Of a stretch of DNA of 64,000 bases, positions 4,454-45,107 are shown piece after piece. How positions within the stretch are numbered: position 1 is the first letter of the stretch; each line of letters begins with the position of its first letter. The notes beneath the pieces are model-generated. The model searched no databases. It worked only from the letters and a program-made list of their open reading frames with translations, and was not told the DNA's origin. Both the position numbers and the translations under genes were made by a program. Origin of the DNA: Rhodamnia argentea (lineage: Eukaryota; Streptophyta; Magnoliopsida; Myrtales; Myrtaceae); the NCBI RefSeq assembly GCF_020921035.1, contig NC_063155.1, forward strand, positions 9,285,001 to 9,349,000. Reading direction: 5' to 3'.

Positions 4454-5678
4454 AAGTGCTTGGACCATTGTCCTGACTCTAAAAACCCCCAAATTGAATG
4501 GACCCTAAATTGGAAGCTCCAAATAGAAATTCGATAATCTAAACTTCGATTACCATAATCAACTTCTTCTTCGTCTCCATCATCTTCTTCTTACTACTCT
4601 TCGAGCGATTGACCGACCCGTTTCTTCTTCTTTGTTTCTTGTGAAGTGAGTCCGGTATTTGGAGTGGTGAAGCATTTGGAATTTGATGAGAGGTGGGAGC
4701 GAGGGAGGACCAGAGACCAGATCGAGCTTTGCGAGCGGTTGAAGAGGAAGGAAGGAAGGATTGTCCGAGAACTTATGGAGGAGGTCTCGCGACGTCACCG
4801 GCTCTAGATACTCCACCTTGTTAGGCGTTTGCTTCTCCACCGAGGCTTCCTTCTTCGTCGATGTCGGCTCCATTCACGGCGTCGTTTTCTGCTGTGAATT
4901 GTAATGCTCGAGTCACGTCGATAAAAAGAAAATTATTTAAACATTGTCTCGATAAATTGTTGGCTTTTTGAATTGGAGTTGGTATTCAAGTGATTATTAA
5001 TAAAAAAAATTATAACACTTGGAACTACGGTACTCGCCTCGATTAATGAGCTAAAAAAAAGTTGACCTAGGATTCTTTCTTCATTCAAAGCAACGTAATT
5101 TTCAGACATCATCATTTCCCTAACGTAGCCTCGGTCTCTGCCTCACACTTGCAAATGTCATCGTCGCTCCTTTAGTAATGACAAATGCGCTCGTTGACTT
5201 CTAGATCTCCGACAGACATCCGCCGTTGACTTGGCGCATCTCTGCTTCCTCCGGGCAAATTTCTTACTGGAACCGTCATGTCCCGCCACGACCATCATCA
5301 AACGCACGTCGGCGACGAGGAGCTGAGGCTTGTGAAAAGAACCGAAGCCGATGAGGAAGTAAGAGCAAGAACAAGCCTATATGATTTTATTGCAGATGGC
5401 CCTTTCCAAAATCAGGCATGTACACATCCAGAATAGAGAAATGGGAACAAATGAGTCAAAAGAAGTGGCAAAACAGAGAAGCAGAAACACAACAACAGCA
5501 ACAGTTGATCGCCCGCTCTCTCGCTGAGAAAAGTAATATATGCACACCTACATATGCACAGACTCGCCTAGCCGGAGCAGCCGAAAATTCCAGCAATGGA
5601 CTGAATCCGTCCACCGCCACTTAATTTTGCCTGATACTCGGAGCCTGAATTGGGAACAGAAACTGACATCATGAACAG

Positions 5679-7298
5679 TTAGAACTCGGTAGAGTTTGCG
5701 CCGTACAAATTCCTCCCATCAGACCCGTAACCGCTGAATCGGTATCGAGTCCTGTTGAATCCGCCTGATTCCAAGGGCACCAACTGGTCGGGATCGTCTT
5801 CCTCACCTAGCTCTCTTCCTCTCATCATTTCCATCAACCTCCTAGCCTTCTCCCTTGCTCGATCGGTCCCCTTCTCCTCGACCTCCCTCAGGACCTCCAC
5901 TGCCTTTGCATCCCTCGCCAACCCTTTAAACCTCAAGCTCCCATGACTCATCGCATAGAGTGCTGCGACGCAATTCTCTCTGGTCGCCTCAGACTCCGCC
6001 TCCTTCCCTCTCAAAAGCTCAACTAGAATGCCCACCGCATTGGCGTCAAGCATGGCCGACCTTCCCTCCTCACAAGCAGCCAGATTGCACAGAGTGAGCA
6101 ATACCAGGTTGGCCAAGTTCCGAGCTTTCACCATCGCCACTAGAGCCGGCACCGCATTGAGCCTCACCAATTTGATCCTATTGCTCTGCACCAGTGTCAA
6201 ATTATACAGAGCAAGTGCCGAGTCATGCCTCGTGCGTTCGCTCTCCGATCTAAGCGTGTGTAGAAGAGGCGGCAAAGCACCTAAGACTCCAATTGCCATC
6301 TTATTATCATCCTCCAAAGCTAAACTAAACAATGCACCGGCAGCATGCTCTTGCGCTTCGCTGCAGCCTCCCTTCAACACATCGATCAACGGGGGCACAA
6401 CCCCTGACCTCACTATTTTCACCTTGTTCCCATTCTCCAGGGACAAATTGACCAGCGAAGCGACGGCATTTACCTGCACCGTGTCGTGCCGCACGGCGAG
6501 AAGCGGCTTGAGCGCGGCGATCATCCTCGACGTGCACAGAGAATCCCTGCTCTCCTCTTTCGTCCTCGTGATCTTCCTCAGCAAGAGCACGCCCTGCTCT
6601 TGTTCGAAAAGCTCGGAGCTCTCCAGCTTCGCCAACAAGTTCTCCTCTTCCGGATCACGAGCCAAGCCCGAGGTCTCGCTCTCCGTGATCTCAGACGAGT
6701 TCCACGGCGAGAAACAGGAAGGCCACGTGGTCAGCGGCAATGGAGTCTCCGGGCTCGCCGTGACCAACACGGATTCCTCCGACGAGCTCGAGTAGAAGTG
6801 TTTCACCCGGGGACCAACCGCGCTCGCCGCGTGGGGGAATATCACCGGCGGATTCTCCGCAACTCCATTCAGCAGCTCTCTCTCCGAATCCCTAATCTCG
6901 CCCCTTGGCTCCTCCTCCTCCTCCTCCTTTTTCCCATCCTCGGCGGCGATCTTGGACCGCACTACCCTCTCGACGGAGCAATAATCCGGCGCTTGCGGGG
7001 GCTGGGACCCCGATTTGTCACACCAATTAAGGATCGTCCTTTTGAGGGCTAGATTTGGGATGAGAGTGGCGAAATCGGGCCTGGAACCGTCGTCCAGCGT
7101 AGGCGAGAAGCCCAGGTCCTTGCACACTTGGGCGGAGACCCGCTCGAAGGTCTGGCCCGACGAAACGACGACGGGCTCCTCCATGATAGACCCGGTGACC
7201 GGGCACAAGAACTCTCGAGGCAGGTCCTTCGAGACGGCGTTGGAGGAGCGGCCGAAGGAGATAATCCACCAGTGCTTTCTTCCATTGCTGCCGCCCAT
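5679..7298 (-). CDS. U-box / armadillo-repeat E3 ubiquitin ligase (PUB38/39/40 type)
   Basis: A single-exon gene of 539 residues. The N-terminus has a U-box at about residues 26-95 (PREFLCPVTGSIMEEPVVV, then SGQTFER, PDFATLIPNLALKRTI and NWC), the fold that recruits ubiquitin-charged E2 enzymes. A variable acidic linker follows (GKKEEEEEEPRGE at about 122-134). From about residue 220 to 490 come tandem armadillo repeats, with segments such as VQVNAVASLVNLSLE, EHAAGALFSLALED and TRENCVAALYAMSHG, which form the substrate-binding surface. Layout and length match the plant PUB38-41 group, cytosolic or nuclear ligases. The ATG was chosen because MGGSNGRKHWWIISFGRSS is the usual lead of this group. 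The member cannot be fixed, so no symbol is given. A GA/CT-rich 5' leader lies at 7310-7490. Large open frames on the other strand (for example 6028-6795) are shadows of its GC-rich coding sequence. Confidence 0.95.
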   Translation of the reverse strand: MGGSNGRKHWWIISFGRSSNAVSKDLPREFLCPVTGSIMEEPVVVSSGQTFERVSAQVCKDLGFSPTLDDGSRPDFATLIPNLALKRTILNWCDKSGSQPPQAPDYCSVERVVRSKIAAEDGKKEEEEEEPRGEIRDSERELLNGVAENPPVIFPHAASAVGPRVKHFYSSSSEESVLVTASPETPLPLTTWPSCFSPWNSSEITESETSGLARDPEEENLLAKLESSELFEQEQGVLLLRKITRTKEESRDSLCTSRMIAALKPLLAVRHDTVQVNAVASLVNLSLENGNKVKIVRSGVVPPLIDVLKGGCSEAQEHAAGALFSLALEDDNKMAIGVLGALPPLLHTLRSESERTRHDSALALYNLTLVQSNRIKLVRLNAVPALVAMVKARNLANLVLLTLCNLAACEEGRSAMLDANAVGILVELLRGKEAESEATRENCVAALYAMSHGSLRFKGLARDAKAVEVLREVEEKGTDRAREKARRLMEMMRGRELGEEDDPDQLVPLESGGFNRTRYRFSGYGSDGRNLYGANSTEF

Positions 7299-9660
7299 TG
7301 CTTGGGAGCGAGAGAGAGAGAGAGGCGATGGTGGAGGATGAGCGAGCTCAAGAGAGAAAGGAGGCCAGAGCTGAGGGTTTGGGCAGATGGGACATGGTTG
7401 GTGGTGGTGAGAAGTAGGGAGATTCTCTCCGTCCGCGGTGCTTTTCTGCCTCTCTCTCTCTCTCTCCGCGGTGGCGGCGACTGGATAAAGAGAGAGAAGT
7501 GGGGAGGATGGCTGCGCACGAGTTGACTTGGACTGGTCTGACAGAAGGAGACGGAGGGGCCGACCGTGATTGCCCGTTAAGACTGCCTTGTCGTCTCCTA
7601 ATTTCTTGTTATAATACCATATATCGTCCTCTAATTTATATTTTTGTGCAATTGGGTCCTTCTGCTTTTAATTTATACAAGTTAGATGGTTTTTTTTTTC
7701 TTTGTAAATCGAAAGTTAGATTTTTTGGCTTATGTGATTTTTACAATGATACCGTTGATTGTTGACCAGGACTAGTGCCTAATCCCCGTACTTTCCACGA
7801 GTTTTCTTTTTATCTATACAAAATCATTTAGATCGTATTTGGTCATCGGGATTTCTGGTCAATATAGGATTTGATATGATAAGATAAAAAATCTAAAGAT
7901 TTGGCCATATCTTATCCATTGTTTAGTGAACTACGGATTTAAAATTGGATATTCGCATATCTTATCATATCCTGCATTTGGTAGAAACTGTATATCAATA
8001 TAAATGACATATATGCCCCTACGTGATGCTCATGAAATATTCCGATCTTATTACTATAAAAATAACGTTCTCATACACAAAAAAAGAAAAGTCTTCTCTG
8101 CCCTTGCCTCATTAAAATTTAGCTAATTATCTCTGGTATCACTTCCTACATATGGAAGTATTTATGACGTATAGTAGATTCATATTTAGGCTCCGTTTAT
8201 TTCTCGAAAAATAGGATATTTTCAAAAAATATTTTCCGAAAAGTTATTCTTCGGGAAAATGACAATATTTTTCGGTATTTGGCTAAAATATGAAAAAGTT
8301 TCAAAAAATATTTTCCTTCGTTTGGTATGAAAAATCGAATTTAATTTTCCCACATGGACTCCTTTTAATAATTTTTTTGTTTTTCCATTTTTATTACATT
8401 TTTTAAAATCTAAATTTTAATTATTTATCTTTATCTTTTTCTCTTTTCTTCTTTTATTCTTTTTTTTTCTTCTTGTTTCTATCGATTGCCGATTACAAAT
8501 GAAGGGTTTTTTTCATGGGTGGAGAATATTTTTCTAAACTAGCTTATTTTCCGTGAATCAAATGCCGAAAAATGTTTTCCTGAATGTTGTTTTCCACAAA
8601 ACAAACGGAGCTAGTGAGATTCAAAAGATTATCCCATTAATGGCTCAACGGGCGTAAAAAATATTTTGTACTTTCATGTTAAATCTATAATAATTTATGA
8701 ATTTAACAAATCACGAAAAAAAAAAGACCTATGTGCATATTCTTATTAAAATTTATATGTTGTCAAAGTTTTGAACAATCTGAATTTAAATATACGAGCT
8801 TTTACTACAAAACAAGCAATATAGCATCTTTTTGCATCTATAAATAAGGTTAACCTGCCTATCGACAAAGCTATTTTATCTTGGGAATTATGACAATTTT
8901 CAAGTGATGCTGAAACTAATTTCCTTGCAACGACAAACAAATCTTGCCAACAACACAAGATAAGAACTACACAACATGCGTCACTCTTAAGCTCTCTTTT
9001 TTTTTTTTTTTTTTTTCTATTTCTATTTCTAATTTTATTGTCTTCTCATTTTCAAATTGACAAGTAGCAATTTCCTCTTCTTTTTTTTTTTTTTTTTCGG
9101 TCCGTCTTTACTTACCCTCCTTCCTATTCGAAAGCTTCGCGATAGCCCTTGTCTTTTCGTTAAAAATTTTAAAACATTTTTATGAATTTTTTATACATAT
9201 TGACGTGATCGTTAAAAATCATTCCAAATTACTGTTGATTAAAGTCACAATCCCTTCTGACAAAAAAAAAAAAAGTCACAACCCGTTAAATGTGTCGAGA
9301 AAATACATAAAAAAAGTCATAATTCCTTAAATGTGTATTTATGTCTGCATGTATATATCTATATATCTTGGCAATAACGGGGCTTGGGAAAAAAGCTTAA
9401 AGGAAGAAAGCACTAATCATGAGAATTTTGTATCAAAATTGATTTGAAAATCGATGAACAGTACGCGAGGACCAAATGCGATAAAATTGGATTCTAGTAC
9501 AAGAATCACAAAACTAATCAGTGCAGGATTCTAGACCAAAGGCAAGTGGCATCCGGCGTCAGTCTCGTTCCGGCAGTGGAGCCTTCCCTTCTTCTTCTTC
9601 TTCTTCGGCAAAGAAGGACGACAGTCGCAGCGAAGCCGACTCGGCAATCTTGGCATCGCC
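7299..9660. other. Intergenic between divergent U-box and RsmG genes
   Basis: AT-rich DNA with no supported gene. The first 200 bp are the CT/GA-rich leader and promoter of the U-box gene. A MITE lies at 8189-8611. Poly-T tracts occur at 8999-9016 and about 9081-9098. The last 120 bp are the leader of the RsmG gene. Confidence 0.7.
8189..8611. mobile_element. MITE, copy B of the GGCTCCGTTT family
   Basis: 423 bp bounded by GGCTCCGTTTATTTCTC and ACAAAACAAACGGAGC, with a non-coding interior full of the words TATTTTCC and GGAAAAT. The flanks (TTTA and TAGT) do not show the TTAA seen at copies A and C, so this copy may be older or have inserted differently. Confidence 0.75.
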
Positions 9661-11809
9661 ATGTTAGTTTCGCGGTGCAAATTTCCCGGCGTTCCCACAC
9701 CGTTATCTGTGGGGACTTTCGTCAAGCACCTGGCGGTCCCCATATCGACGAGGCTACACTGCGCTCTAGTCGGTGCAGGAGGCGGGGCCAAGAGCAGGGC
9801 TGTTCGTTGTCCCAAGTTCCAGGCCCTGAAGAATCGTCAGAAGGAGCAGATACACCTCTACGTCGACGCTCTCCTCGAGTGGAACCAGGTTATACGTCTC
9901 TCCTTTGCCTCTTCCGTATGAACACGAGCCGACAAAACAAGAAAAGGCGGGTTTTTTTTTTTTTTGAGTTTTGTAGCTTTGAAGCGTAGAGATTGAGCGA
10001 AGAGGAAATTATTGAGCAGAGAATGAATCTGACTGCTGTCAGAGAGGCGGATGAGGTGATGGAGAGGCACATCGAGGACTCTCTATCGATTATCCCTCCA
10101 ATACGGGACTCTTATCTATCGCATTGCGATGCTTCTTGCGGTAACATTAGAGTCGTCGATGTTGGGAGCGGCGCTGGGCTTCCTGGACTGGTCTTAGCAA
10201 TTGCACAGCCCGGTAAGCATGTCGGTTCATCAGTTGTATTATTATGGCTGACTTTTGTGGAAGTCATAGTCGCACGGTCTGTTGGATTTGAGAGATGGTC
10301 TTCATATTTGATGCGGTTTTTGTTCACCTTTTGAAATGTGGGGTTGGTGGGACTTTTTGATTCTTCTTATAAATGGCACTGAAGATTGGCAGGTGACTCT
10401 TGTTGAGTCTATGAGAAAACGTTGTGTTTTCTTGGAGCATGCGGTCAATCTGGCCGGGGTGTCCAATGTCGAGGTCGTGAATGGGAGAGCCGAGGTACAA
10501 GTTCCGTCACTTTTCTATGACTAAGGACTTATCCACAAGAAATAAGACTGTCTCAGTGTTTAATGTGGAAAGTTTGGAGCATTCTGGTAACACTGTACCT
10601 TATCAGCACTGTGGTGCATCTTCTGAAAATCTGTTCTTGGGCAGGATATTGGTAATGATTTGTGCTTCAGAGAACATTTTGATGTTGCCGTTGCCAGAGC
10701 TGTTGCTGAGATGAGAGTCTTAGGTGATGATTGGATGTTCATTGGAATCACATTTCGTACTTTTGGTTCATGCAGTGCTTATACTTTTTACATTTCCAGC
10801 TGAATATTGTCTTCCACTTGTTCGCGTTGGTGGCTTGTTTGCGGCTGCGAAGGGTCACAATCCGGACGTGCGTATTTGTTTCTTCCTTTCATATTTACTT
10901 TTGGTGCTTCAATCAGCCGAATTCTTTAACTTTATCTATTACTCTGTCTCATGGCACCTAAGTTACTGGAATGATGCACAATAGTAACTCCAGCTAGTGC
11001 GAGATTTACCATTCCCTGTAAAATTACCTCTTTTCTTAGGTATGCGGAGAGGGTTGCATTAACTTTTCTTCATTCGGAATGTGAGCAGGATGAAGTTAAA
11101 AATGCTGAAACAGCAATCCAGTCAATGGGTGCTTCCCTTTTACAAGTCTGTCCTGGTAAATATTCTGTATCTCTAGCTGATGGAAATATTCCTGGAGTTT
11201 GTATCTACGCATAAGAATTGTTTGCTAGTGTCCGTAGTGGTTGTTAATCGGTCAGGCAGGCCTGTTTTACCTGATAGATTTAGGAGTAATACAACCTCCT
11301 GTGGAAAATATGGAGCGTCAAGAATTTAGAAGGAAAGGGAGATTTATGGACAGTGCTATGCTGTGATAGACTGATAGGTGGAAATAACAGTATTAGGTCC
11401 ACTAGTGTCATGCCCAGCGCTAATTAAGCTGGCGCAGCATGTGGATACTCGTGTGAGATTCGAAGCCAAATTCTCTGCCTCTAAGAGACTCGTATCGGAC
11501 AAACTGAATTAGTTGTCTCCACGTTGTCAGCATTTCTCAATGCAAAGCAGGCTATGATAGGAGGATTTTTGTGCCATTATTCTTATGCTGATTGAGATCG
11601 AAGTTTGGAGGATTTGTTCCACTTTATTCCTGATATACGAGTTAATCATGCTAGTTTCATGAGTCGAATTTATGTATTTGTTTCGGCTGTTTCCAGTTGA
11701 ATCCCATGGTCCATACGGGCAGCGAACTGCCATCATCTGTTTGAAGGGTCACCAGACCCCCAGAAAGTATCCCCGTCATGCAGGCACACCAGCGAAAGAA
11801 CCACTGTAA
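9661..11809 (+). CDS. rsmG: RsmG/GidB-type 16S rRNA guanine-N7 methyltransferase, probably plastid
   Basis: RsmG transfers methyl from SAM to N7 of a guanine in the 530 loop of bacterial-type 16S rRNA. The plant nuclear copy is expected in plastids. Seven exons: 9661-9888, 9990-10212, 10385-10494, 10645-10723, 10800-10867, 11089-11155 and 11697-11809. They give 295 residues with all borders GT-AG. The first ~45 residues look like a transit peptide. Family marks are the [20 protein letters not shown] block, the SAM loop [18 protein letters not shown] (about residues 130-147), [29 protein letters not shown] and [14 protein letters not shown]. For exon 3 the acceptor at 10381-10384 was chosen over one 8 bp downstream, because only it keeps frame and restores the family's P-D-W-x-V-T-L. 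An upstream ATG at 9546 opens another frame that overlaps this start. Confidence 0.9.
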
Positions 11810-13845: not shown

Positions 13846-16800
13846 ATGGCTCCGGCTCGGCCTCCTTTTCCCGCCATTCCCCTCGCCCTCCTCCTCGTCC
13901 TCGGCATCGTCGCCTCCGCTCGGTCCTCCACCGCCGGAGTCGGCTACGTGTCGCGGCTCCTCGAGATTCAGGACCGCGAGCGAGCTCCGGCTGCGGTCCA
14001 GCTGGCCGCGGCCCGCGGCGTGCTTCGGCGGTTGCTGCCTTCGCATGACTCGAGCTTCGAGTTCCTGATCATTTCTAAGGTACTCAATTCACGAGGATTA
14101 GCGTTGTTGCTTGGGATTGTAAGCCTTACGACAGTTTTCGAGGAAACTATTTTGCGCGACATGAGATGATCAGACTGACTCGGTGTATGAGCGCGCGATC
14201 ACTCTTGTTATGAGAGTAAAGTCCTGCGTCGGGCAATCGGGGGCATGTCTTTCATGAACTTGCCATTAGAAATTTGAGTGATAGTATTGTGATCAGAATC
14301 GCTATATATTATCTATTGATCAAAGCTTGTAGACGTTTACTGCTTGACTTTTAATTGATTGCAATGGAGGAAGATTTTCTCTGGAAGGTCAGATCATTCG
14401 CTGATATTTGGTTCTTTCAGGATGAATGCGGCGGTGAGATTTGCTTTATGATAACAAATCATCCTTCGTTCAGCAGACGTGGCACTCCTGAAATAGTGTA
14501 CGCCAACATCCCTTACTCAAATATTGTTTTTGCTGTTAAAGCATTTAACATGTTAGTCAGTTCATTGGTAGTTTCTGTCGTGTCATCTTGGTGAATGTCA
14601 TTAACACTTCGCTGGCACTCGAAGGAGTAGGTACAGCTTGCAAATTTTACTTCATAACCAAAGTGTTTTGCTCAGTAAATTATCAAAGCCCTCATCTTTT
14701 CCTCATGAAAGTCAATGCTTCACGGATCTCCATCTATTCCGAATCTTCATATTGCTTTGGCAGTTTAGCACACATCAGCTTTTGGGGTTAATATTAATAC
14801 ACAGGACGTCCCCATGGAGGATCACTAGTAAGAACTTTTTGAGGAAAGCTCTGAAAGGACAAATAGTTCCTCTGTTACTTCAAATGTTGCCTATTCTCTT
14901 TTTTCGGCCTCTTTTTCTCTTTCCATTGTTGACCATGGTTTTAATTTTTAAATAGGATTTCTGGAGTAACTGGGGTGGAGGTCTTGGCCGGTTTACACTG
15001 GTACTTGAAGTACTGGTGTGGTTCACACATTTCTTGGGATAAAACTGGTGGTCTGCAATTGCATTCAATACCAAAATTTGGTTCTCTTCCCCGTGTTCAG
15101 GATGCTGGCATTGTTGTTCAGAGACCCAATCCTTGGAGTTACTATCAAAATGCTGTTACATCAAGCTGTAAGATTTTACTGAATATTGACCTATACTTTT
15201 TAGGCAGTCATCCTATGGCATTTTATGAGCTACTGATGCATTATCAATATGATGATAAAGTTGTATTTTTGGATTTGGTACTTGCCTAACTACATCAAAT
15301 GTGATTTGGGAAGATTCTTTTGCTTGGTGGGATTGGAGAAGATGGGAGAAAGAAATTGATTGGATGGCCCTTCAAGGTGTCAACTTACCGCTAGCGTTCA
15401 CTGGGCAAGAGGCTATTTGGCAAAAAGTTTTTCAGGTACCCTTTTGGTTCTTAAGATAAAATTATATGAACAAGCTGACATTTGTTCTTGGCAAATTTGT
15501 GGTTTATTCACTGTTGAAAAGAATTTGCTTGTGTCGGCTTTTTATTTATTTCTGATGGATGAAGATGCAGTTGGCTGCTTGGCAAGTCAGCATGAAGCTT
15601 TGGCTCTCAGTTGTATCTTTCTTCTCCCATGAGAGTTAAGTTAGCGTAGAGTCCTAGAGTGAAGGGGATATAGGATACATTCTGTCGTTGCCCCTGTTCA
15701 TATCTGTGATTCCCCTCACTAATGCTTTGAGAAAGAATCATTCAAAATCCATTTTCCATCCTGTCTAAGAATATTTGACATTTTTAAGTCACAACAACTT
15801 TTACTAAGATTTATTACTTTGATCATGGATCCTGTGGTTTAATTTGTTGGGGCATCTGCTGTTGATTAATTCATACAATGAATATGGTATTGCATAATGT
15901 TTCTCTGATAATTGCATTTTAACATGCTTCATCATGTCTGATTTGGTATTATCCTCCACATTTCTTCAGCAGAGGTTTAACACAAGCACGTCGGATTTGG
16001 ATGATTTCTTTGGAGGTCCTGCATTTCTCGCCTGGTCTCGCATGGGAAATTTGCATGGGTGAGCTACATTTTCTCATTTGGTGATCTCACTGCTGGTTCT
16101 CTCATCCAAACTTTTTTAGGTTAATAGGTGAGTTGTCTATGTTTTGGCCTTTTTTTAGACTATTTCTGATTTCGTAAATGTCAACATGCTCTTCATGACA
16201 GGTTTTGCTTTTGACTTTGCAGTTTGTTCTTGTGTGTCTTCTTTTTACATAGTCCTTTGCTACTCAAAATAATCAGGTTGAGATAATTGAAATCGTAAAA
16301 AGGTTTTTTCAAATGTACCATCCAGAATGTGTGTGTCATATAGTATCTAGCCACCACAGTACTCTCTTCCTCACTTTGTTGTCATTGATTTCAGTAGTAC
16401 CTGTCATAATTAATGAGCTTATCTTAGCACAGATGGGGTGGACCACTACCGCAGAGTTGGTTGGACCAACAACTACATCTGCAGAAAAAAATTCTGAGAA
16501 GAATGTATGAACTTGGGATGACACCAGGTACCAGGTCAACTGTATATTGACCTGCATTTTGAAGTCGACTTCTTCTATCACTTGGAAGCTTCTCATCAAT
16601 AGATGTTATTTTAGACTCTATTTCCTCTCATTTGACCTGCAAGAATGAAAAATAAAAAATCCGACTCTTGTGATGTCAGTTTATTGTCATTGCTCACGAT
16701 CTCACAATTAGATTGAACTCGTCTAGTATGATGTAGGCACTTAAGTACTTGGGATGTCTGAACATAACATTGGATGTCCTCGACTTCACCACTGAGAAAT

Positions 16801-19800
16801 CGTGATGTAAGGGGGAATCATGCAGGACCAGCTTTATTAAGAAAGTTGCTCCTACAAACACACAAGTATAGCCTAGTTTGGAGTCATTAGGAACATCCCA
16901 CTTGGTCTAGGTAAACAATAATTCAACTCTTTATCTCTCTTGCAGTCCTTCCAGCCTTTTCTGGGAATGTTCCAGCAGCACTAAAAGATATATTCCCTTC
17001 AGCAAAGATCACTCGCCTAGGGAATTGGTGAGCACCTCCCTTGGCAACTTGATTCAGAACTTTCTCCTGATGTCCCTGTTAATTTCTTGTCTGTAAAAAG
17101 ATGTAATAACGTGTGCAGCATGTATGTTGATTAATTTCCTATGACTGTCTCAAGAGGAATGTGCGTGGTTATCCAGTGTCCATGAAATCATGACCATGAT
17201 CCCGTAATCAAAATAGCACATGCTAAGCATCTATCATCTTGTTTATTTGAGTTGCGCATGGTTTTATCATGGGCATTAGAATCTTGTTTTAGTTTTCTTA
17301 CTGCATCTGTCCAACATATTTTAGGTTTTCCGTTGAGAGTAATCCAAGATGGTGCTGCACTTACCTTCTTGACGCAACTGACCCCCTCTTCGTTGAAATT
17401 GGACGGGCATTCATTGAACAACAACTGAGAGGTTTGCACAATCCTCCGCAATACTTTAATTTTCTTTGCTTGTTGTATATGAAAGGTGTCTTCTTTCTCC
17501 ATAGTCATCTTCTTTTTTCTGCTTCGTTCTCAGAATATGGAAGAACTGGTCACATTTACAACTGGTAAGAACTCTCATCATTTCACTAATGATTGCTCTG
17601 CCCAATCGAAGTTATTGTGGATGAACATATAATGCTGATGTTACTTGTGGCATTGTTCCTCATACTTAAAGTTGTGAAGCTGCTAATGGAGTTGTTGCAC
17701 ACCTTGGCATTCATGATCCATGTGCAAAATGGCGATTTACATGCCCATAACAACTGCTGTTCTTTTAGGTTTGGGTCTGGTTCTAGCCTAAATAGGCAGG
17801 CTATGCTTGGACTTTCTGGTTGGAGTTTTTATTTGGCTAATAGCATTATCGGTTGCTGTAGAAAAACCATAATGGCCTTTTCCTCAATTCTCTCTTTTTA
17901 ATTAAGTCTTGAGTCTGGCTGAAAAAAAAAAAGACTTGGTTGGGGTTTTTATTTGTCGAATAGCAGTATCGGCTGCTGTAGAAGAACCATAATGGCCTTT
18001 TCTACAAAACTCTCTTTTTAATTAAGTCTGGAGAGAGAGGGGAGGTATGGTATGGCTGAAAAAAAGACCTGGTTGGGGTTTATTTTGTGAAACTGCTGCC
18101 TTGGAGAACTAGTATCTTTGATGTGGGTCCACATATTTGGATGTTTGCTTTGACCAATTAGGATCAATCATCATCACATATGCAAACAAAAGTCATATAA
18201 GGAAACCTTCCCCTGAAGAGAGTTGCAGGTGGATTGTATGAATGGGTCCAGGGGCACAGATCTGGGCCTCTGAAGTTGAATGTATTTGTACAGAGTTCTT
18301 CTACAAATATGTTCAAGTAGTTTTAACTTCCACTGAATACTAAAATTTCCTTTCCTCTGGCCTTGCCCCAATTTTTGGCTGTGTCATCGTATTCTTCATT
18401 TACAATGCTACAAATAAAAGAGTAATCTGTGGAATCTGCAAGTCATAGTACACCCTGAATGTCCAGCTTTATGGTGAAACGGAACATAACAGCTGCCAGA
18501 ACATGTTGGAACCTACAGTTTATGACATTAGTTATTTTGGAACAATAGATTGACCCAGTCGAAGTATATCTGTAATTGGTGATCTAAAATACATTGAGTA
18601 CTTGTGCCTTTTTCTGTCTACCTTCTGTTATGTATAGGCCTCTTCCATGTAGGGCATTACGTGATGAATTTTTGGGTTATTGCAGTGACACCTTTGATGA
18701 GAACACTCCACCTGTAGATGAACCAGCATATATATCTTCCTTAGGTGCTGCAATCTTTGAAGGAATGCGGAGTGGTGATGCTGATGCAGTCTGGCTGATG
18801 CAGGTGTGAAGTACCATCCGCTAACAAACTTTCTTCGGCAACTACGAGATTTCTATGTGCCAAATATATGGTTTGAATGTCTTGATGGTGGTTTTTCACA
18901 TTACTCCAATCTAAGGTACTCTTCTTTGTCTTTTCTTCAGGGATGGCTGTTTTCCTATGATCCATTCTGGAGACCTCCCCAAATGAAGGTGAGTACGCCC
19001 CATCACATTGCTGTGAAATTGCCTGCAGTGCTCTCTCCAAGTAAACATCAAAACTTGTGTGGCCATATTGAATGGCCACTATGTTGCTTTCTTCTTTTTG
19101 AATATTTAAACAACTTTTGCATATTTTGTGGTGCTGCTCTTCACAGACAGATGGCAGAGATATTGGTGGATGTGCCTGATTTTTGTCAATTTGCTCTACT
19201 TATTGTGTTTAAGCTTATATTTGCTGGTAGATAATTCTGCAGTATGTGGTTGCTTCAGGCACTTCTACACTCTGTGCCACTGGGGAAGCTGGTAGTCCTT
19301 GATCTCTTCGCTGAAGTGAAACCCATATGGATTACTTCGGAGCAGTTTTATGGGGTGCCTTACATCTGGAAAGTTGCCTCCCTGTTCCTTTTGTTTGTAA
19401 TGATACCTAGAATATTTCCATGTGACTGAAAATCTAACTCAGGTTCTCCCAAAAAAGTTATGTCCGGAATGGGAAGCAACAAACAGTAGCTTGGTTTTGT
19501 CATTGTGTTTTTACGGACCAGATTGGGTTTTTGACAATTTTACATCTTCATTGATTGAGCTTGAACGTGAGCCTTTGCCTATTTCTATGTTCATTTGGGT
19601 TAATATCCTATTCTGTTTTTTGCTTTTATGTATTTCAGGTGCATGCTTCACAACTTTGCTGGAAATATTGAGATGTACGGGGTACTAGATGCTGTTGCAT
19701 CTGGACCAATTGAAGCTCGTATGAGTGAAAACTCAACAATGGTAGATTCATTTTCTTGATGTGGATGGCATTAATTGTTAGTTGCTTGTTTGAGTAAAAT

Positions 19801-22791
19801 ATGGAGTTCTGGTCACTTTCACATCATTGCTGGTGGCCACTTATCTGGATGTCAATGTTGGGCAATAAAGGGAAACTATCTGTATTTTTGTTCCATTCGG
19901 CTGCTCATCTTCATCACAGACAAGCAAGATATATGAAGAATGAATAACATTGAGGAAGATCACGCATTTTGGATATGTATTGTGTAGGGAAAGTGCTCAG
20001 GCTATCTTTTGTACAATGGGTTTTTGCACTGTTTTACGGTGTTCACTTGTTGGCTAACCAACTGAAATCTCTTGTTTCCTAAAACATACAAGATGTTTGA
20101 AGAAAGAATAATGTTGAGGATGATCACACATTTTCAATATGTAATGTGTATGGAGAGGGCTCAGGTTATCTTTTGTACAATAGGTTTTTGCACTGTTTTT
20201 CGGTGTTGACTTGTTGGCTGACCAACTGAAATCTCTAGTTTCCAACACTTTTTTCCTTTTCATTTTCATAGGAAGATCACACTGAACATGAGATTATGAA
20301 TGTAATATGAACTAATTGACAAGTGATTATCATCAATTGGAGTGAGATTGCTTTGTTGATAGTTGATCTGTGGCTGAAATCGGTGCTTAAAATTGCCCAT
20401 AGAAAAGGTTGTGACCAGATTTATTGTAGCTTCATGTGGAAATGATGCTTTGTTAGGATTAATCTCCACTCTTTGTTTTTTTTTTTTTTGGTAAGGAATC
20501 TCCACTCTTTGTTTTGCTCTGAATTATCTTTTTTTTTTCTTTTTTAATCTTAAAACCAATTTGAAGAATTTACTGCTATTTTTCTTGTTGATTGCTGAAG
20601 GTTGGTGTTGGAATGTCTATGGAGGGCATAGAGCAAAATCCTGTTGTTTATGATCTCATGTCTGAGATGGCATTTCAGCAAAGGAAAGTCGATGTTAAGG
20701 TAATTGAAACTATATCTGCCTGACTTCGATGTGAAATGCAAACACATAAGAATAGCAAGTACCCACAAGCCTCGTCTTGTCGCCTATGCTCATCCCAATT
20801 GTTCTCTGTGGGATGTGACTTTGCAGTATCCCGGTATTCGCATGGGTTTTGTACTGCTCAATCTCTTACTTGTTAGATCAGAGTTTTAGCGAAATGCTAC
20901 ATTTTTTCTGTCACTGACATACATTGTAAAGCAGAACAAATTGTTAGGACATAGTCTATGCTTCTTCCAAAAGGGCTACCTACAGAATTAGTTGGGTGTG
21001 GAGCATTTTGAACTGGAAAAGTCACCTAATTTGGTTACTATTACTTAACATTCTATTGTTTAAACCTTTCCTTTCCCTGTCTGCATTGTTTGATTGTGTG
21101 GGCACAACTTGAATAAATATGAACTTTTTGTGTTGGTTTAAAATTGTGTTTCCTCTCTACCTCAGACATGGATCGATCTATATTCAGCTAGGCGTTATGG
21201 GAAATCAGTTTCTTCGATAAAAGAAGCATGGAACATCCTTTATCACACGATCTATAACTGCACCGATGGATTATATGTAAGTCTTTTCTGTGTTCACATT
21301 TGTTGTATGTGTTTAGGTTGCTCTGATGCATGTTGTAGTTTTACTTGTCCGATGGATAAATGACTGTACAAAAATATCTATGCTGACATATTTCTGCATT
21401 ATCCAAAACGATATTGTATTATGTTTTTGTCAGTGGCCTTTTTGTTTCATTGATGCAGGACAAGAACAGGGATGTCATTGTGGCTTTCCCTGATGCTGAT
21501 CCTTCTTCAATTTCATTCTCACAACTGAGGTATCGTCGCCATGGAAAGCCACTTTTGAGAAGAGCAGTGCTGAATGAAAAAACTGGTTTGACTGATCAGC
21601 CTCATTTGTGGTACTCGACATCCGAAGTGGTACGCGCGCTAGAACTTTTCCTTGCAGGTGGCGATCAACTGCAATCTAGTGATACTTACAGGTTCCATGC
21701 TTCAATTTATGTCAAATCAAATATTTTTTGAAGTTTTTTCTGCTAACTATGTTGATGGACAGTCAAAAGTCTTCAGTTTTGTTCATGCATCTTCTCTCTC
21801 ATCATTTTTTTTTGTCTCAATACTCTGCAATTTTTTTGCTTCCAATTTCATCATAGGTATGATCTCGTTGATCTAACAAGACAAGCTCTGGCAAAGAATG
21901 CAAACGAACTATTTTTGAAAGTCATAGAAGATTACCAGCAACAAGATGTTTATGGAGTTGCTTTACATAGCCAGAAATTCCTGAATCTTGTTGAGGACAT
22001 GGACACACTCTTGGCTTGTCATGAAGGATTTCTTCTGGGACCTTGGTTAGAAAGTGCCAAGCAACTCGCCCAAGGTGAAGAACAGCAAAGACAGGTATGG
22101 AGGCTTTCAGTCACTGATCAATCAGTTTTAGAATTTTTTGGAAACTTAATGTCTGCAAGGTGATACTTCGACAGTTTGAATGGAATACGAGGACACAGAT
22201 AACAATGTGGTTTGATAACTCAGCAGAGGAAGCAAGTCTACTGCGTGATTATGGTGAGGAAATTGAACCTTTTGCATAGTTTCTTCTAAAGCTCTCGTGG
22301 AATATACAATCCTTGGAAGTAGCTGGTTTTCATTGAAAGTTATTATATTCGCAATAGAGCAGACATTGCTGCATCACATCTCTTACATGCTTTTAAGAAC
22401 TTAATGCTTTCGATCTCCATAATTTTCTTACCACATCTCATACTTTTATCCTGGATTGCTATGAAATTCATCTGCAGAGAGAGAAAGCTAGAGCATAATT
22501 TTTGGGTGACTGATCTTCCTTTCCTTTTGTTCAGGAAACAAATATTGGAGCGGACTTCTAAGAGATTACTATGGTCCACGAGCAGCTCTTTATTTCAAAT
22601 TTCTAAAAGAGAGTTTGGAGGAGGGCCACGATTTCCGGTTGAAAGAATGGAGGAAGGAATGGGTAAAGCTTACAAATGATTGGCAAAACAGCAGAAACCT
22701 GTACCCATCGGAGAGCATGGGTCACGCTTTTCACATATCACAATGGCTATATGACAAATACTTGAGAGATCCTGACACTTATGATCAGTAG
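13846..22791 (+). CDS. NAGLU: Alpha-N-acetylglucosaminidase, GH89 (NAGLU; Arabidopsis CYL1-like)
   Basis: GH89 enzymes remove terminal alpha-linked N-acetylglucosamine; in animals they act in lysosomal heparan sulfate breakdown, while the plant substrate is less clear. Nineteen exons: 13846-14079, 14421-14497, 14956-15167, 15314-15435, 15973-16058, 16433-16527, 16946-17027, 17325-17431, 17534-17564, 18686-18803, 18941-18988, 19259-19368, 19639-19741, 20601-20699, 21166-21276, 21459-21691, 21857-22094, 22175-22253 and 22535-22791. They give 813 residues. A signal peptide opens the protein ([13 protein letters not shown]). GH89 marks are [53 protein letters not shown] and [14 protein letters not shown]354 (in TFDEN) and E483 (in MEGIEQ) align, from memory, with the two catalytic glutamates of human NAGLU. 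Every intron has GT-AG ends except the one after 19368, which starts with GA. Confidence 0.94.
17817..18090 (+). repeat. Tandem duplication in NAGLU intron 9
   Basis: Two imperfect copies of a unit of about 120-130 bp lie at 17817-17936 and 17937-18069. Each starts TGGTTGGRGTTTTTATTTG, contains CCATAATGGCCTTTTC and ends GGCTGAAAAA...AGAC. A truncated third copy follows at 18070-18090. Non-coding. Confidence 0.85.
19921..20246 (+). repeat. Tandem duplication in NAGLU intron 13
   Basis: Two adjacent copies of about 160 bp (19921-20087 and 20088-20246) share GTTTTTGCACTGTTTT, TATCTTTTGTACAAT and CCAACTGAAATCTC. They differ at scattered bases. Non-coding, inside the intron after exon 13. Confidence 0.85.
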
Positions 22792-38962: not shown

Positions 38963-40471
38963 TAACTTAAAACGACGAGGAAGACGACCAGATTTGCTTT
39001 GCACTCTAAGGATCTCCTTTGCAAAACCTTGGTTTCCAGTAAGTAAAAGCCCATCCAAGACCCTGTTGAAAGTAAATTTTCTAGGCACAAATCCTCTGTC
39101 AACCATCTCAATCAACAATTTCCCTGCCAGCACCAAATCATCCGATTTCTTCCTCACAAACATGGAACTGATAAGGATGTTGTACGTGTCCAAATTTGGC
39201 AAGCAAACCCCACTTCCCATTTTCTCAAACAGGCGCATGCCATTCTCTATTTCTCCAGCATCACAAAAGTAACGAATTGTGATATTGTATGTCTGTACAT
39301 TAGGTTCACATCCATCATCCTCCATTCTTGACAAAAATTCCACAGCTCTGTCCATATGCCCTGCATGACACAATCCCCTAATCACCAAATTGTAAGTAAT
39401 TGAGTTGGGCACGTAACCCTTCCTCAACATTTCTTCGAAAACCACAATCGCATTTTCCACATTATCTTTCTTGCAGAGAACCTGAATCATGGCATTATAA
39501 GTGGCAACAGAAGGAAGAATCCCCTCTCTAGCCATCTCATCAAACACCCTTCTAGCTTTCTTAATCTCACCAATGATGCCGAAACCATGGATCACCGTGG
39601 TATACGTGACAACATCAATATCACACTTCCTCTTCTTCATCTGCATAAAGAATTGCCACGCTTCATCAACTTGGCCAGCTCTAAAGAACCCTTTAAGCAT
39701 TATATTATAAGTTGTCGAACTCGGGTTCAACCCCCTATCCACCATCTCCTTGAACACCTCCAAAGCCATCGGCGTCCGTTTGATCAAACACCACCCATTC
39801 GCAATTATATTGTAACTAACACAATCAGCCTTAAACCTGCCCCGGAAAACCTTAAACAACTTGTTGGTAGCCATCTCTACATGTCTAGACTTGCACAGTA
39901 TATCAAGAACGGTGTTAAAGGAACTCAAATCCTGACGACAGCCGTGCTCGTGCATCGACAAGAACACCTTAACCGCTCTATCCGGTTTCCCGGCGGCCAC
40001 ATACCTCTCGGCGATAATCGCGAATGTCTTCGGGGAGGGGCCGAGGCGGAGGGACCGCATCCGGGCCACGGAGGCCCACACGGCCCTGTAGTCGCGGACG
40101 CGCGCGGCGAGGTCGACGGCGTGGTCGAAGGAGGAGGCGGAGTGGGCGTAACTGGGATGTTGGGAGAGCTGGGCGAAGAAAGCCAGGGCCTTTGGGGCGT
40201 GGTTCCAGAGGCGCTTCAGGGTCTTGTCGACAAGGTCCGGCGTCCATTGGATGCTAGGATTTTGGAGGATTCCGGGCAGGGTTTGAGGGGTTGAGGCGAG
40301 GATTGAGGCGGCGATGGAGGCGTCAAGTGGAGGAGCAGGTGGCGGTGGCGGTGATGCGGTGGTTGCTAGGAGTTGGTGGGGGAGGTAAGAGGAGGTGAAG
40401 AAGAAGAAGTTGGAGGTGGTGATGGTGATGGTGATGGTCTGAACAGGACCTCTGTGCAGAAGAGTGAGCAT
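38963..40471 (-). CDS. OTP43: P-class pentatricopeptide repeat protein, mitochondrial (OTP43-like)
   Basis: An intronless gene of 503 residues. After a proline-rich organelle-targeting start (LLATTASPPPPPAPP) come about ten tandem 35-residue PPR units from about residue 100 to 490. Examples are SFNTVLDILCKSRHVEMA, TYNIMLKGFFRAGQVDEA, TYTTVIHGFGIIGEIKKA, TYNAMIQVLCKKDNVENA and TYNLVIRGLCHAGHMDRA. All are P-type; there is no E or DYW extension, so RNA binding in splicing or stabilisation is expected rather than editing. Arabidopsis OTP43 (At1g74900), required for nad1 intron 1 trans-splicing, sits beside ALDH10A8, and this gene sits beside ALDH10. That position is the main reason for the name. 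The open frame extends 62 codons further upstream, but those codons are AT-rich and promoter-like, so the ATG at 40471 is preferred. Confidence 0.9.
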
Positions 40472-42120
40472 CTCCCGGCGTTGAATGGCGCTTCGATCCG
40501 CGACCTTTGGGCGGAGGAAATATTGAGTGATACGAAGGCGCCACGTCAATTGCATTTGTGTAATCAGATTTATTTTCGAATTGACACGTGGGAAAATATA
40601 TAATATAATCTTACATAACAATACGAAAATTCTAGGAGTGAGCGATTTCAGAATCATTTGGAACTTATCTGTTGAAACTGGTTCTCTAATTTTTGGAACC
40701 TAAAAAACTTACTTTTTCTCTGGTTTCGTGGTCAACCCAAGTTCCATTTGTATTCTTAATTGAGCGATTACGCTTCATCATCACTTCTAATGACCATTAT
40801 TGTTATTACAATTCACTGACCACAACTCGTATTTGGACAAACGAAGAATATGAAACATTAACAAAAAAATTATAGATATCGCTAGAAATGAAAGTTCAGA
40901 TCGATGATTTTAGATTACAAAATCATCATTAGATACCATGCAATACCGTAGGATTGCGCAAAGACATAAAATAGAAAATGACTATGTTCACTAAAAGCTT
41001 GAAAACTTATTACGAAGGTGCAATTGAGCCTTAAAATTTGTCGAATTGATGCAATCGAGTCATTTCGTTAACTCCATAACTTGGCTAAAGAAAAATACCG
41101 ACGTAACTTTTTTAAATATTTTTTTTATCCTACGTGGTGATGTCGTGGTTAAAGCGACCTTATTTTGGTTTAAGTATGATTTTTAATATAATTTTTATTT
41201 AAATCAATTTAATAATAATAATGTAAAATCAAGTCAAGTCAAATCAAATCAAAACTAGTGGCGAGTCGCCGTCGCCGCCCCACCACCTCCGAGAAGGGTT
41301 GGTGATGGTGGGGATAGGGTTGACGAGTGTCGGCGAACCCCGGCCATGGGCTGGCCACCCTTGTCAATCGAGCCGCCGACCCAACTCTCACCATCGGTCG
41401 ATTAAGTCCTTGTTTTACATATTGGCTAATAATTGATAAGTTGTTTACGAATCAATCGGCATGCTCGACATTAGTAAGCTGGAAATAAATTTAAGGCTGC
41501 GTTTGTTTCACTAGAAATAAATAACTTACAAAATTTTTAAGAAAATGATCGTTTATATCGCTTAAAAAACGAATGAATGAAAAATATTTTCATTGTTGTA
41601 AAAAAATTTTACACATGAATTACTATAGATAATAAAAGTATTTTCAATTAACTAATTATTTCAGACAGTCTAATCGATATTTTTTAAGAAAATAATTTTT
41701 CTGATTTTTTAGTTTTTATTTTTATTTTTCATGTAATAAACGGAGCTTAAGTGTCTTTAAATTGGCTTTCACTATTACATTTTCCTTAAAAATTAAGAAA
41801 AGAACCTATCAAATACATTCAAATTAAGTGCAGGGACCGGGAAGCCTCGCATTCTTCGAGTATTCGAACTTCACTACGGTGGCTCTCTCTCTCTAGTCTT
41901 TGGTCTTCTTCGCGAAAACGTTTTGAGAAGGGGAAGCGGAAGAGGAGGAAGACTCGACGAAGAAAGACTTCCACTTTCCCCGCCTCGCCGTCGCCGTCGC
42001 CGTCGCCCGTCCTATTTTGCTGCCACTCTAGGAATCCATAGAAGCTTCGACACTGCAAGAACCAGAGCTTCAACCGCTTTCCCACTGAATGCGTCGATTC
42101 CGCGATTCGAGAGAGTTGCA
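40472..42120. other. Divergent promoter region between the PPR gene and APC8, with repeats
   Basis: No gene supported. Part of a hairpin repeat (AAAACTT..GTGCAATTGAG words, about 40990-41430, with a GC-rich core at 41250-41390) and a 252-bp TTAA-flanked MITE at 41495-41746 lie between the two promoters. The last 250 bp are CT- and CGTCGC-rich APC8 leader. Confidence 0.65.
41495..41746. mobile_element. MITE, copy C of the TTAA-flanked family
   Basis: 252 bp bounded by GGCTGCGTTTGTTTCAC and ATGTAATAAACGGAGC, with TTAA at 41491-41494 and 41747-41750. The AT-rich interior resembles copies A and D. It sits in the shared promoter region of the PPR gene and APC8. Confidence 0.8.
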
Positions 42121-45107
42121 ATGAGTTCGAAGGAGATCTGCCGGAACGAGCTCCGAATTGCAGTCCGCCAGCTCAGCGATCGCTGCCTCTACTCTGCTTC
42201 CAAATGGTATTGCATTCCAAAAACCCTAGCCCCGATTTCAAATACTTCCGTGCTGGGTACGTAGTGAAGACGGTAATGTTGGGAAAAACAGCTGCTTTAT
42301 GGGTTAAACGTAGCTGCCTTTACTTCCGACATTGGTGGGTGCTGTCCATTTTCTTGATTCTTAAGTCTTCGATTTTGTTTTTCTTTTTAATTTGTTTCGA
42401 GTAATGGGGTTTCTGAATTAATCGATTGAATTGCACAAAGTGTGAGCTTTGCACTCCAAATGCAAAAATCCGGGCTTCACACTGCAATTTCTAGTGTTAG
42501 AAGCTTGGGGTGGGTAAAACCCTGTGCCTGTTGCTGCCCTAAGAAATGATCAAGGAAGCACAGCATTAATGTTCTCTACTAGGATCTGCTTCTAGTTAGT
42601 TGATCTCATGGAGGAGAAATGGAATTTGTTCTCTGCTCAAAATGTTTCGCCTTAGTTCCAGCTCAGAGGAATTCATGAAGAGCATAATTACATGCAGGGC
42701 AGCAGAGCAATTAGTGGGAATTGAGCTAGACCCGGTAAAGTTCACGCCTTCAAACACCAGATTCCAGCGTGGGAGCTCCAGCATCCGCAGGAGATTCCGC
42801 ACAAATGAGATCACATCGACCCCAATTGCTGGGGTGTCGTATGTGAGTACTCCGGTCATGGAGGAAGATGACGCTGTTGATGGTGACTTTTACCTTCTGG
42901 CCAAGTCTTACTTTGACTGCCGCGAGTATAGGAGGGCTGCTCATGTGCTTCGGGATCAGTCCGGGAAGAAAGCTGTCTTCCTACGATGTTATGCTCTTTA
43001 TCTGGTTTGTCACTCGAGGCTTCTGTATAGAGCTATCTCACAACATGTTAATCCTTTCATTTCTCTTTTCCTTTTACAGACTATCATCCATGACAACTTG
43101 ATAGATATGTACTAGGTCTAAGTATGCTTGGGTCGAGTATGTTTGTCAAAGCAAGAATCAACTTACACACGCAACAAAAGAGTTGATTAGTTTAGACTTA
43201 TGCACTTATGATAAGCAAGTTAACTGTGGCTATGTGACAATGAGGAGTTCCACATGTCGTTACAATCATCATTGCCCAAGACGTGATTGGATGCTGAAGT
43301 GGACAGGTGAAGATTGATATGATGGAGATTGTAAAGTTTCCTGTGATAAAACAATTTGCTTCATATGTAGCTTAAGGTTAATATGGTACGAATTTATCAC
43401 TGAGTTAGACAAATCACTGGAGGGCTTTCACTTTTCTCTAGATGACTTGCTTGTTTTTTTTATCCGTACGTTGGTACCTAGAGAATGACATGATTACCTG
43501 CTTGCTCTTTGGAGCTGCCTCTCCAAGTTTCTGCACAACTTTTATTAGCTGTTTTGATCTTGTGCAAACAACATCACATTGGAGGCTGCATAATTCGATG
43601 AAACTCCTGACTGTCCAGTCCCACTTAACATTCTTATAAGTTGTACCTATCGTTTGCTTTATGTAGGCTGGAGAAAAGCGGAAAGAAGAAGAGAATATAG
43701 AACTTGAAGGACCCTTAGGTAAGAGTGATGCTGTTAACAAGGAATTGGTTTCTCTAGAGAGGGAGTTGTCAATGCTACGTAAGAATGGGTCCATCGATCC
43801 CTTTGGGTTGTACTTATATGGTCTTGTTCTTAAAGAGAAAGGCAGTCAACACCTTGCACGTAGCGTTCTTGTGGAATCTGTGAATAGCTATCCTTGGAAC
43901 TGGAGTGCATGGTCAGAGTTGCAGTCGTTGTGCACTACAATTGACACATTAGACAGTCTACCTCTCAATAACAATTGGATGAAGGATTTCTTTCTTGCTT
44001 GTGCATATCAAGAACTCAGAATGCACAACGAGTCCTTAGCAAAATATGAGTATCTGCAAGGCACCTTCAGTTTCAGTAATTACATACAGGCACAAATTGC
44101 AAAAGCGCAGTACAGTCTAAGAGGATTTGAACAAGTGGAAGTGATATTTGAAGAACTCCTGAGAAATGATCCTTACCGAGTGGAGGACATGGATATGTAT
44201 TCCAATGTACTCTATGCTAAGGAATGCTTGTCTGCCTTGAGTTATCTCGCCCACAGGGTATTTTTGACTGATAAGTACAGACCAGAATCTTGTTGTATAA
44301 TTGGAAATTATTATAGTTTGAAAGGCCAACATGAGAAGTCAGTTATATATTTTAGGAGGGCCCTTACATTGAATAAGAATTGTTTATCTGCTTGGACTCT
44401 AATGGGTCATGAATACGTTGAGATGAAAAACACTCCAGCGGCTGTTGATGCCTATCGGCGGGCTGTAGATATAAATCCGTGTGATTACCGAGCCTGGTAT
44501 GGTTTAGGACAGGCCTATGAGATGATGTGCATGCCTTTCTACGCTCTCCATTATTTTAGGAAATCTGTATTCTTGCAGCCAAGTGATTCTCGCTTATGGA
44601 TTGCTATGGCTCATTGTTATGAAGATGAGCCGCTTCACATGCTAGAAGAGGCAATCAAGTGTTACAGGAGGGCAGCGAATTGTAATGACAGGGAAGCAAT
44701 TGCTCTTCATCGGCTGGCAAAGTTGCATTGTGATCTTGGCCGTTCTGAAGAAGCTGCTTTTTATTACAAAAAGGATCTGGAGCGGATGGAAGCTGAAGAG
44801 AGGGATGGACCTAATATGGTTGAAGCTTTGCTTTTTCTTGCCACACACTGCAAAGACCAGAAGAGATTTGAGGAAGCAGAGGTGTATTGCACCCGTCTTC
44901 TTGATTACACTGGCCCAGTAAGTTATTTACTTTGCTCCGGCTGTATATTTGGAAGACCATATTGCTTACTAGCATTATTGAGTGATCTTGTCCATTTTTT
45001 TTTTTTTATGAATACAGGAGAAAGAGACTGCAAAGAGTCTACTACGAGGAATGAGAATGGCACAATCTTGTTTTCCTTCAATGAATGCTGAGCCTTTTCC
45101 TCCATAA
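42121..45107 (+). CDS. APC8: Anaphase-promoting complex subunit 8 (APC8/CDC23)
   Basis: APC8 is a TPR scaffold subunit of the APC/C ubiquitin ligase, which drives mitotic exit. Four exons: 42121-42206, 42698-43004, 43667-44917 and 45018-45107. They give 577 residues, close to the usual plant length. The N-terminus ELRIAVRQLSDRCLYSASKW and the segment DGDFYLLAKSYFDCREYRRA are typical of CDC23. From about residue 230 onward come tandem TPRs, for example FFLACAYQELRMHNESLAKY, IIGNYYSLKGQHEKSVIYF, WTLMGHEYVEMKNTPAAVDAY, WYGLGQAYEMMCMPFYALHY and LHRLAKLHCDLGRSEEAAFYY. The end is FPSMNAEPFPP. Exon 3 holds nearly three quarters of the protein. It lies between the PPR gene and B12D. Confidence 0.95.

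Follow-up and report, generated by a model that had tools for sequence, protein, structure and literature searches.

GT is nearly obligatory at plant donors, and where GA takes its place the gene is readily misread in annotation as truncated or as a pseudogene. Does a gene with such a site still yield a full-length product, or is it broken? The question is raised by intron 12 of an alpha-N-acetylglucosaminidase (NAGLU) gene of Rhodamnia argentea, located in a 64,000-nucleotide stretch of plant nuclear DNA (positions 9285001-9349000 of contig NC_063155.1, here called the window) in an assembly of 346.7 Mb and 74 contigs. In the assembly, the GA donor is genuine. We put the probability that this intron is a functional, spliced U2-type GA-AG intron at roughly two in three, a reading based on the DNA, a forced junction, an intact frame and two more GA-AG introns, with the comparison made within one assembly.

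The NAGLU gene and its setting

The NAGLU coding region (13846-22791, + strand) was modelled from conserved protein text and splice sites, and consists of 19 exons with 2,442 nt that code for 813 aa. All of these exons are open, including the seven located 3' of the GA site, and the only stop is found at the very end. The product contains the Pfam domains NAGLU_N (PF12971), NAGLU (PF05089) and NAGLU_C (PF12972), all above the cut-off, and it belongs to family GH89, with the N-terminal, TIM-barrel and C-terminal domains present. Human NAGLU (PDB 4xwh) was the top of four matched solved sequences (E 3.2e-173). No relatives were found in viral contigs, and among the papers listed on this gene in Arabidopsis none was seen to report intron 12.

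The neighbour of NAGLU is an rsmG (GidB)-like gene (9661-11809, + strand; 858 nt of coding sequence), identified with Pfam, as were a U-box/ARM protein (5682-7667, - strand), a PPR protein (38963-40699, - strand), ANAPC8/CDC23 (42600-45088, + strand), PEX14 (54672-55688, + strand) and a GH47 fragment (903-1262, - strand). Seventeen of the 18 NAGLU introns are GT-AG, the sole exception being intron 12 (GA-AG), as are all six introns of rsmG; this regularity, together with the intact frames of both genes, is evidence for a functional intron 12.

The same data bear on the possibility that the A is a base error of the assembly and that the plant itself carries GT (or GC) at this donor. It is a matter of one base in one assembly, where the stretch formed by exon 12, intron 12 and exon 13 has a single match at the DNA level, and two papers warn that some of the rare splice pairs are due to sequence errors (PMC5716242, PMC6310983). 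However, neither a stop nor a frameshift interrupts the coding sequences of NAGLU and rsmG (missense errors would not show in this count), and an error would have to match by coincidence the pattern of two other GA donors of the assembly, described below. We therefore regard a base error as quite improbable.

The exon 12/13 junction

Exon 12 (19259-19368, + strand; 110 nt) ends in ATC TG and exon 13 (19639-19741, + strand; 103 nt) starts with G TGC ATG CTT CAC. The intron between them (19369-19638, + strand; 270 nt) opens with the donor GAAAGT (19369-19374, + strand), present in the DNA and in the gene model, and closes with an AG acceptor (19637-19638, + strand) that ranks fourth strongest among 24 acceptors. 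Its short form is CTG^GAAAGTTG...TTTCAG^GTGC, where ^ marks a splice border, and its borders in full are TTACATCTG^GAAAGTTGCC...TTTTATGTATTTCAG^GTGCATGC. An earlier note on this DNA had placed the end of exon 12, the GAAAGT and the start of exon 13 at these same positions, and all three were confirmed.

The junction is forced because it splits a Trp codon (TG^G, Trp being encoded by TGG alone) and because no gap is seen there against homologues. Human NAGLU (4xwh) reads GQPFIW-CMLHNFGGN across the junction without a gap, and the solved relatives 2vc9 and 7mfk have none at the junction either, their gap falling a few residues upstream (three alignments compared of the four matches). Among relatives from genome contigs, 80 of 366 were compared, all of them bacterial NAGLU loci with no plant named in their titles, and none of the 80 has an indel between the junction Trp and the next residue; a single one has an insertion, but further upstream. 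Two other intron placements would give the same mRNA, 19368-19637 (GG..CA) and 19370-19639 (AA..GG), and of these three equivalent placements only the GA-AG one has a normal acceptor. Protein homology thus fixes the junction at which the intron starts with GA and ends with AG. Introns 11 (18989-19258) and 12, which flank exon 12, are each exactly 270 nt long, an equality that is probably due to chance.

Strength of the GA site and alternative outcomes

We built a donor matrix from the 17 GT donors of NAGLU itself, which score 3.3 to 10.4. With positions +1 and +2 included, the GA site scores 4.14; with both left out, its flanks rank third of 18 within NAGLU and fourth of 24 when rsmG is added. 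Ranked in this way against the introns of the window, the remaining donor and acceptor positions conform to the U2 consensus. The predicted U1 duplex has -4.4 kcal/mol, within the range of -2.4 to -12.1 for the 17 GT donors; it is mismatched at two positions, -2 (exon 12 ends in TG and not AG) and +2. Two other structures were tried and rejected, namely a micro-exon and a U12-type intron. Donors of the latter type carry TATCCTT after the first base, a motif absent from the donor found here (GAAAGTTGCC).

Most of the simple ways of missing the GA donor would truncate the protein. The nearest GT (AAA^GTTGCCTC; 19373-19374, + strand) has a matrix score of 0.17 and a U1 duplex of -1.6, and translation bore out the earlier statement on its use: with the four extra bases the frame runs into a stop, at 452 aa. 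If intron 12 is retained, the stop comes at 460 aa, while skipping exon 12 or exon 13 gives 414 or 450 aa, respectively. Skipping both keeps the frame, with a product of 742 aa that has lost 71 residues. A scan of donors in 19262-19639 and acceptors in 19420-19734, with introns of at least 60 nt, found 17 GT/GC-AG combinations that keep more than 780 aa, but every one of them removes residues from the conserved block or adds some to it. Hence, the earlier assertion that the protein text is kept only with the GA junction stands for GVPYIW-CMLHNF, but not for a long reading frame as such.

Among the in-frame possibilities, the plant could use the GT at 19384 (5 aa added) or at 19393 (8 aa added) with the normal acceptor. 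Both donors keep the frame, but they are weak (0.47 and 1.95, respectively) and would add residues between W and C that are absent from human NAGLU and from all 80 bacterial homologues, making the use of another in-frame junction of this kind very improbable.

With all positions of the matrix counted, the GA site is outscored by three nearby cryptic GT sites, at 19443 (6.22), 19422 and 19355 (4.74 each), which counts against a functional GA-AG intron. Should the GA site be weak, these are the sites most likely to compete with it. With the donor at 19443 the retention stop stays, since the 460-aa end precedes that point, and for those at 19422 and 19355 a long frame requires an acceptor within exon 13.

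Such outcomes would be expected from a recent damaging donor mutation or a segregating allele, in which intron 12 would be mostly retained or mis-spliced, with a premature stop, and NAGLU would be reduced or lost from the haplotype. Retention, the GT four bases downstream and the single skipping of either exon all truncate the protein, the cryptic sites outscore the GA site, and a recent mutation would leave the remaining gene intact, as observed. Conversely, the open exons, seven of them downstream of the site, argue against damage, and there is no easily seen spare copy, the DNA-level match of the stretch in the 346.7-Mb assembly being single, though a diverged paralog may exist; a DNA search with the exon 12-13 stretch found no retrocopy with the spliced junction in the assembly. 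A chance hit at +2 would, in addition, share the positions that follow with the other GA donors of this genome at only about 1 in 23 (see below). On balance, a damaging allele seems unlikely to us.

Further GA-AG introns of this assembly

In Arabidopsis, intron 4 of AGY1 (SECA1) and intron 6 of PPI1 are GA-AG introns, Sanger-confirmed on cDNA amplicons according to the excerpted text of the Nd-1 paper (PMC5716242). We inspected the counterparts of these two genes only because that paper names them, so they are not a measure of the number of GA introns in the genome.

The SECA1/AGY1 counterpart was located via the SecA family, and its intron 4, numbered from the first coding exon, is GA-AG (contig C10, 19615684-19615802), with the donor hexamer GAAAGT, the same as in NAGLU. 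Its borders are GCCACG^GAAAGTAATT...GAAAACAG^AGTATTGAG, or ACG^GAAAGTAA...AAACAG^AGT in short form. The joined protein text, DYLRDNLAT-SIEELVLRG, has no gap at the junction in three SecA alignments (3 of 24 matches), although in one of them three residues are inserted a few positions past it, and the use of a GT four bases downstream of the GA donor leads to a stop, as in NAGLU. A direct repeat, recognised from a translated text that occurs twice with a spacing of about 117 nt, seems to be located in a later intron of this gene (about 8041-8280 of the fetched locus).

Two PPI1-like genes were found. In the first, PPI1-A, intron 6 (the last of six) reads CTCAAG^GAAACTATTC...CTACAG^GAACGG, with the donor AAG^GAAACTAT, i.e., AAG^GAAACT. 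At the equivalent place, the second gene reads CTCAAG^GTAATCATC...CTTCAG^GATCGT, with the donor AAG^GTAATC. The two genes thus have GA and GT at one junction, forming a natural GA/GT pair (fetched loci: reverse complement 4720-4804; 5097-5320). Intron 6 of PPI1-A is likely a GA-AG intron, less forced than that of SECA1 because a GT 36 bases downstream (CAG^GTATTA) keeps the frame, leaving a 49-nt intron. We judge 49 nt to be too short for a plant intron.

The three GA donors, CTG^GAAAGTTG, ACG^GAAAGTAA and AAG^GAAACTAT, share the pattern G^GAAA(G/C)T, which was recognised after the fact from three sites. Among the 23 modelled GT donors of the window, six have AA at +3/+4 and three of these also have T at +6, two of the three with G at -1. 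AA(G/C)T at +3 to +6 is found in one of the 23, and therefore a donor hit at random at +2 would seldom resemble the other two GA donors. The earlier note had left a functional GA-AG intron, a damaging mutation and a base error unranked. The first is now favoured because of the intact frame of the whole gene, the strong donor flanks and the two GA-AG introns of the same pattern in the genome; the other two are weakened but not refuted.

Spliceosomal RNAs and a proposed mechanism

The genome has at least 26 U1-like loci, as found by scoring 42 of 5,493 first-look candidates, and 19 of them exceed the family cut-off. A T at position 7 of U1 would pair with the A at +2, and position 8 is the one changed in one reported Eurytemora U1; none of the 19 copies over the cut-off has T at either position. 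The stretch ACTTACCT at U1 positions 3-10 is kept in 18 of the 26 loci. Of U6, at least 24 loci were found (48 of 36,838 candidates scored), 11 of which have an exact 22-base stretch around the ACAGAGA box. The box itself is kept in two further diverged copies, and the remaining loci are altered in or near it; the best copies have the standard box. An Rfam scan of the window at the gathering score gave no matches. A special U1 or U6 that would compensate for the GA donor is not supported among the copies listed, where rare copies could have been missed. The lack of a compensating U1 over the cut-off and the standard U6 box of the best copies count against a functional GA-AG intron.

A U1-like cluster on contig C6 includes copies over the cut-off (19635059-19635227 and 19653325-19653484) in which the 5' ends are altered (ATACATACCTG and CCACAAACCTG), while the promoter element upstream is matched exactly or with 1 mismatch. 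From their sequence, they may be variant U1 snRNAs with a preference for T at +3/+4.

From these U1 and U6 copies, we infer that the GA donor of NAGLU would be recognised by the ordinary U1 and U6 snRNAs. The mismatch at +2 would be tolerated because the site pairs elsewhere, through G at -1, +1 and +5, AA at +3/+4 and T at +6, and most transcripts would be joined at the Trp codon to give the full-length NAGLU enzyme. Some retention of intron 12, ending at the stop, may also take place, as reported for the GA-AG intron of Trema SYMRK.

Comparison with known GA-AG systems

That some plant GA-AG introns are spliced efficiently, according to the literature, counts for a functional intron 12. One of them is intron 12 of SYMRK in Trema orientalis, where relatives have GC at the site; in PMC10668435, the GA-AG intron is described as functional and about 95% spliced, and the GA form was tested by complementation. 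SYMRK resembles NAGLU in that one GA donor gave the look of a broken allele to a plant gene with no other damage, but its splicing was measured, whereas NAGLU is known from the DNA of one genome. Arabidopsis AGY1 (SECA1) and PPI1 are also conserved plant genes with GA-AG introns, and their counterparts here have the donors G^GAAAGT and G^GAAACT, compared to G^GAAAGT in NAGLU. The two Arabidopsis introns are reported to be confirmed on cDNA, in contrast to NAGLU intron 12, and their donors were compared at the GA.

The published rarity of GA donors counts against a functional intron: they make up 11 of 104,094 annotated introns in Trema and 14 of 161,774 in Arabidopsis (PMC10668435, excerpted text), and only 19-23% of the annotated GA-AG pairs of an animal survey had RNA-seq support (PMC7072748, excerpted text). 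Thousands of GA-AG introns are reported in Eurytemora affinis and Oikopleura dioica (PMC5714493, PMC7072748). They share with NAGLU a GA donor with A at +3. However, AG is described as obligate at the exon end of the Eurytemora GA donors (PMC5714493), and one U1 copy has a changed base, while the NAGLU exon ends in TG and no such U1 was found over the cut-off. The alternative GA 5' splice site of human FGFR1-3, U2-type like that of NAGLU, is said in excerpts of PMC4176328 and PMC7072748 to need a GT six bases upstream. In NAGLU, the nearest upstream GT, at 19355, is 14 bases away. Both the TG exon end and the lack of a GT six bases upstream count against a functional intron 12.

Implications

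Three GA donors of the same pattern in one genome, two of them with counterparts in Arabidopsis that are reportedly confirmed on cDNA, provide a testable rule for the acceptance of A at +2 by the plant spliceosome, and the PPI1-like pair a matched natural control, with GA and GT at one junction. As a tentative and rather doubtful extension, GA introns might form a small and enduring class in flowering plants that follows the donor rule G^GAAA(G/C)T and is served by ordinary U1 and U6 or by an unrecognised helper factor; this genome would then have three or more of them, NAGLU intron 12 included. If such a class exists, a plant donor could switch between GT and GA in either direction and the gene would still be kept, as suggested by the PPI1 pair.
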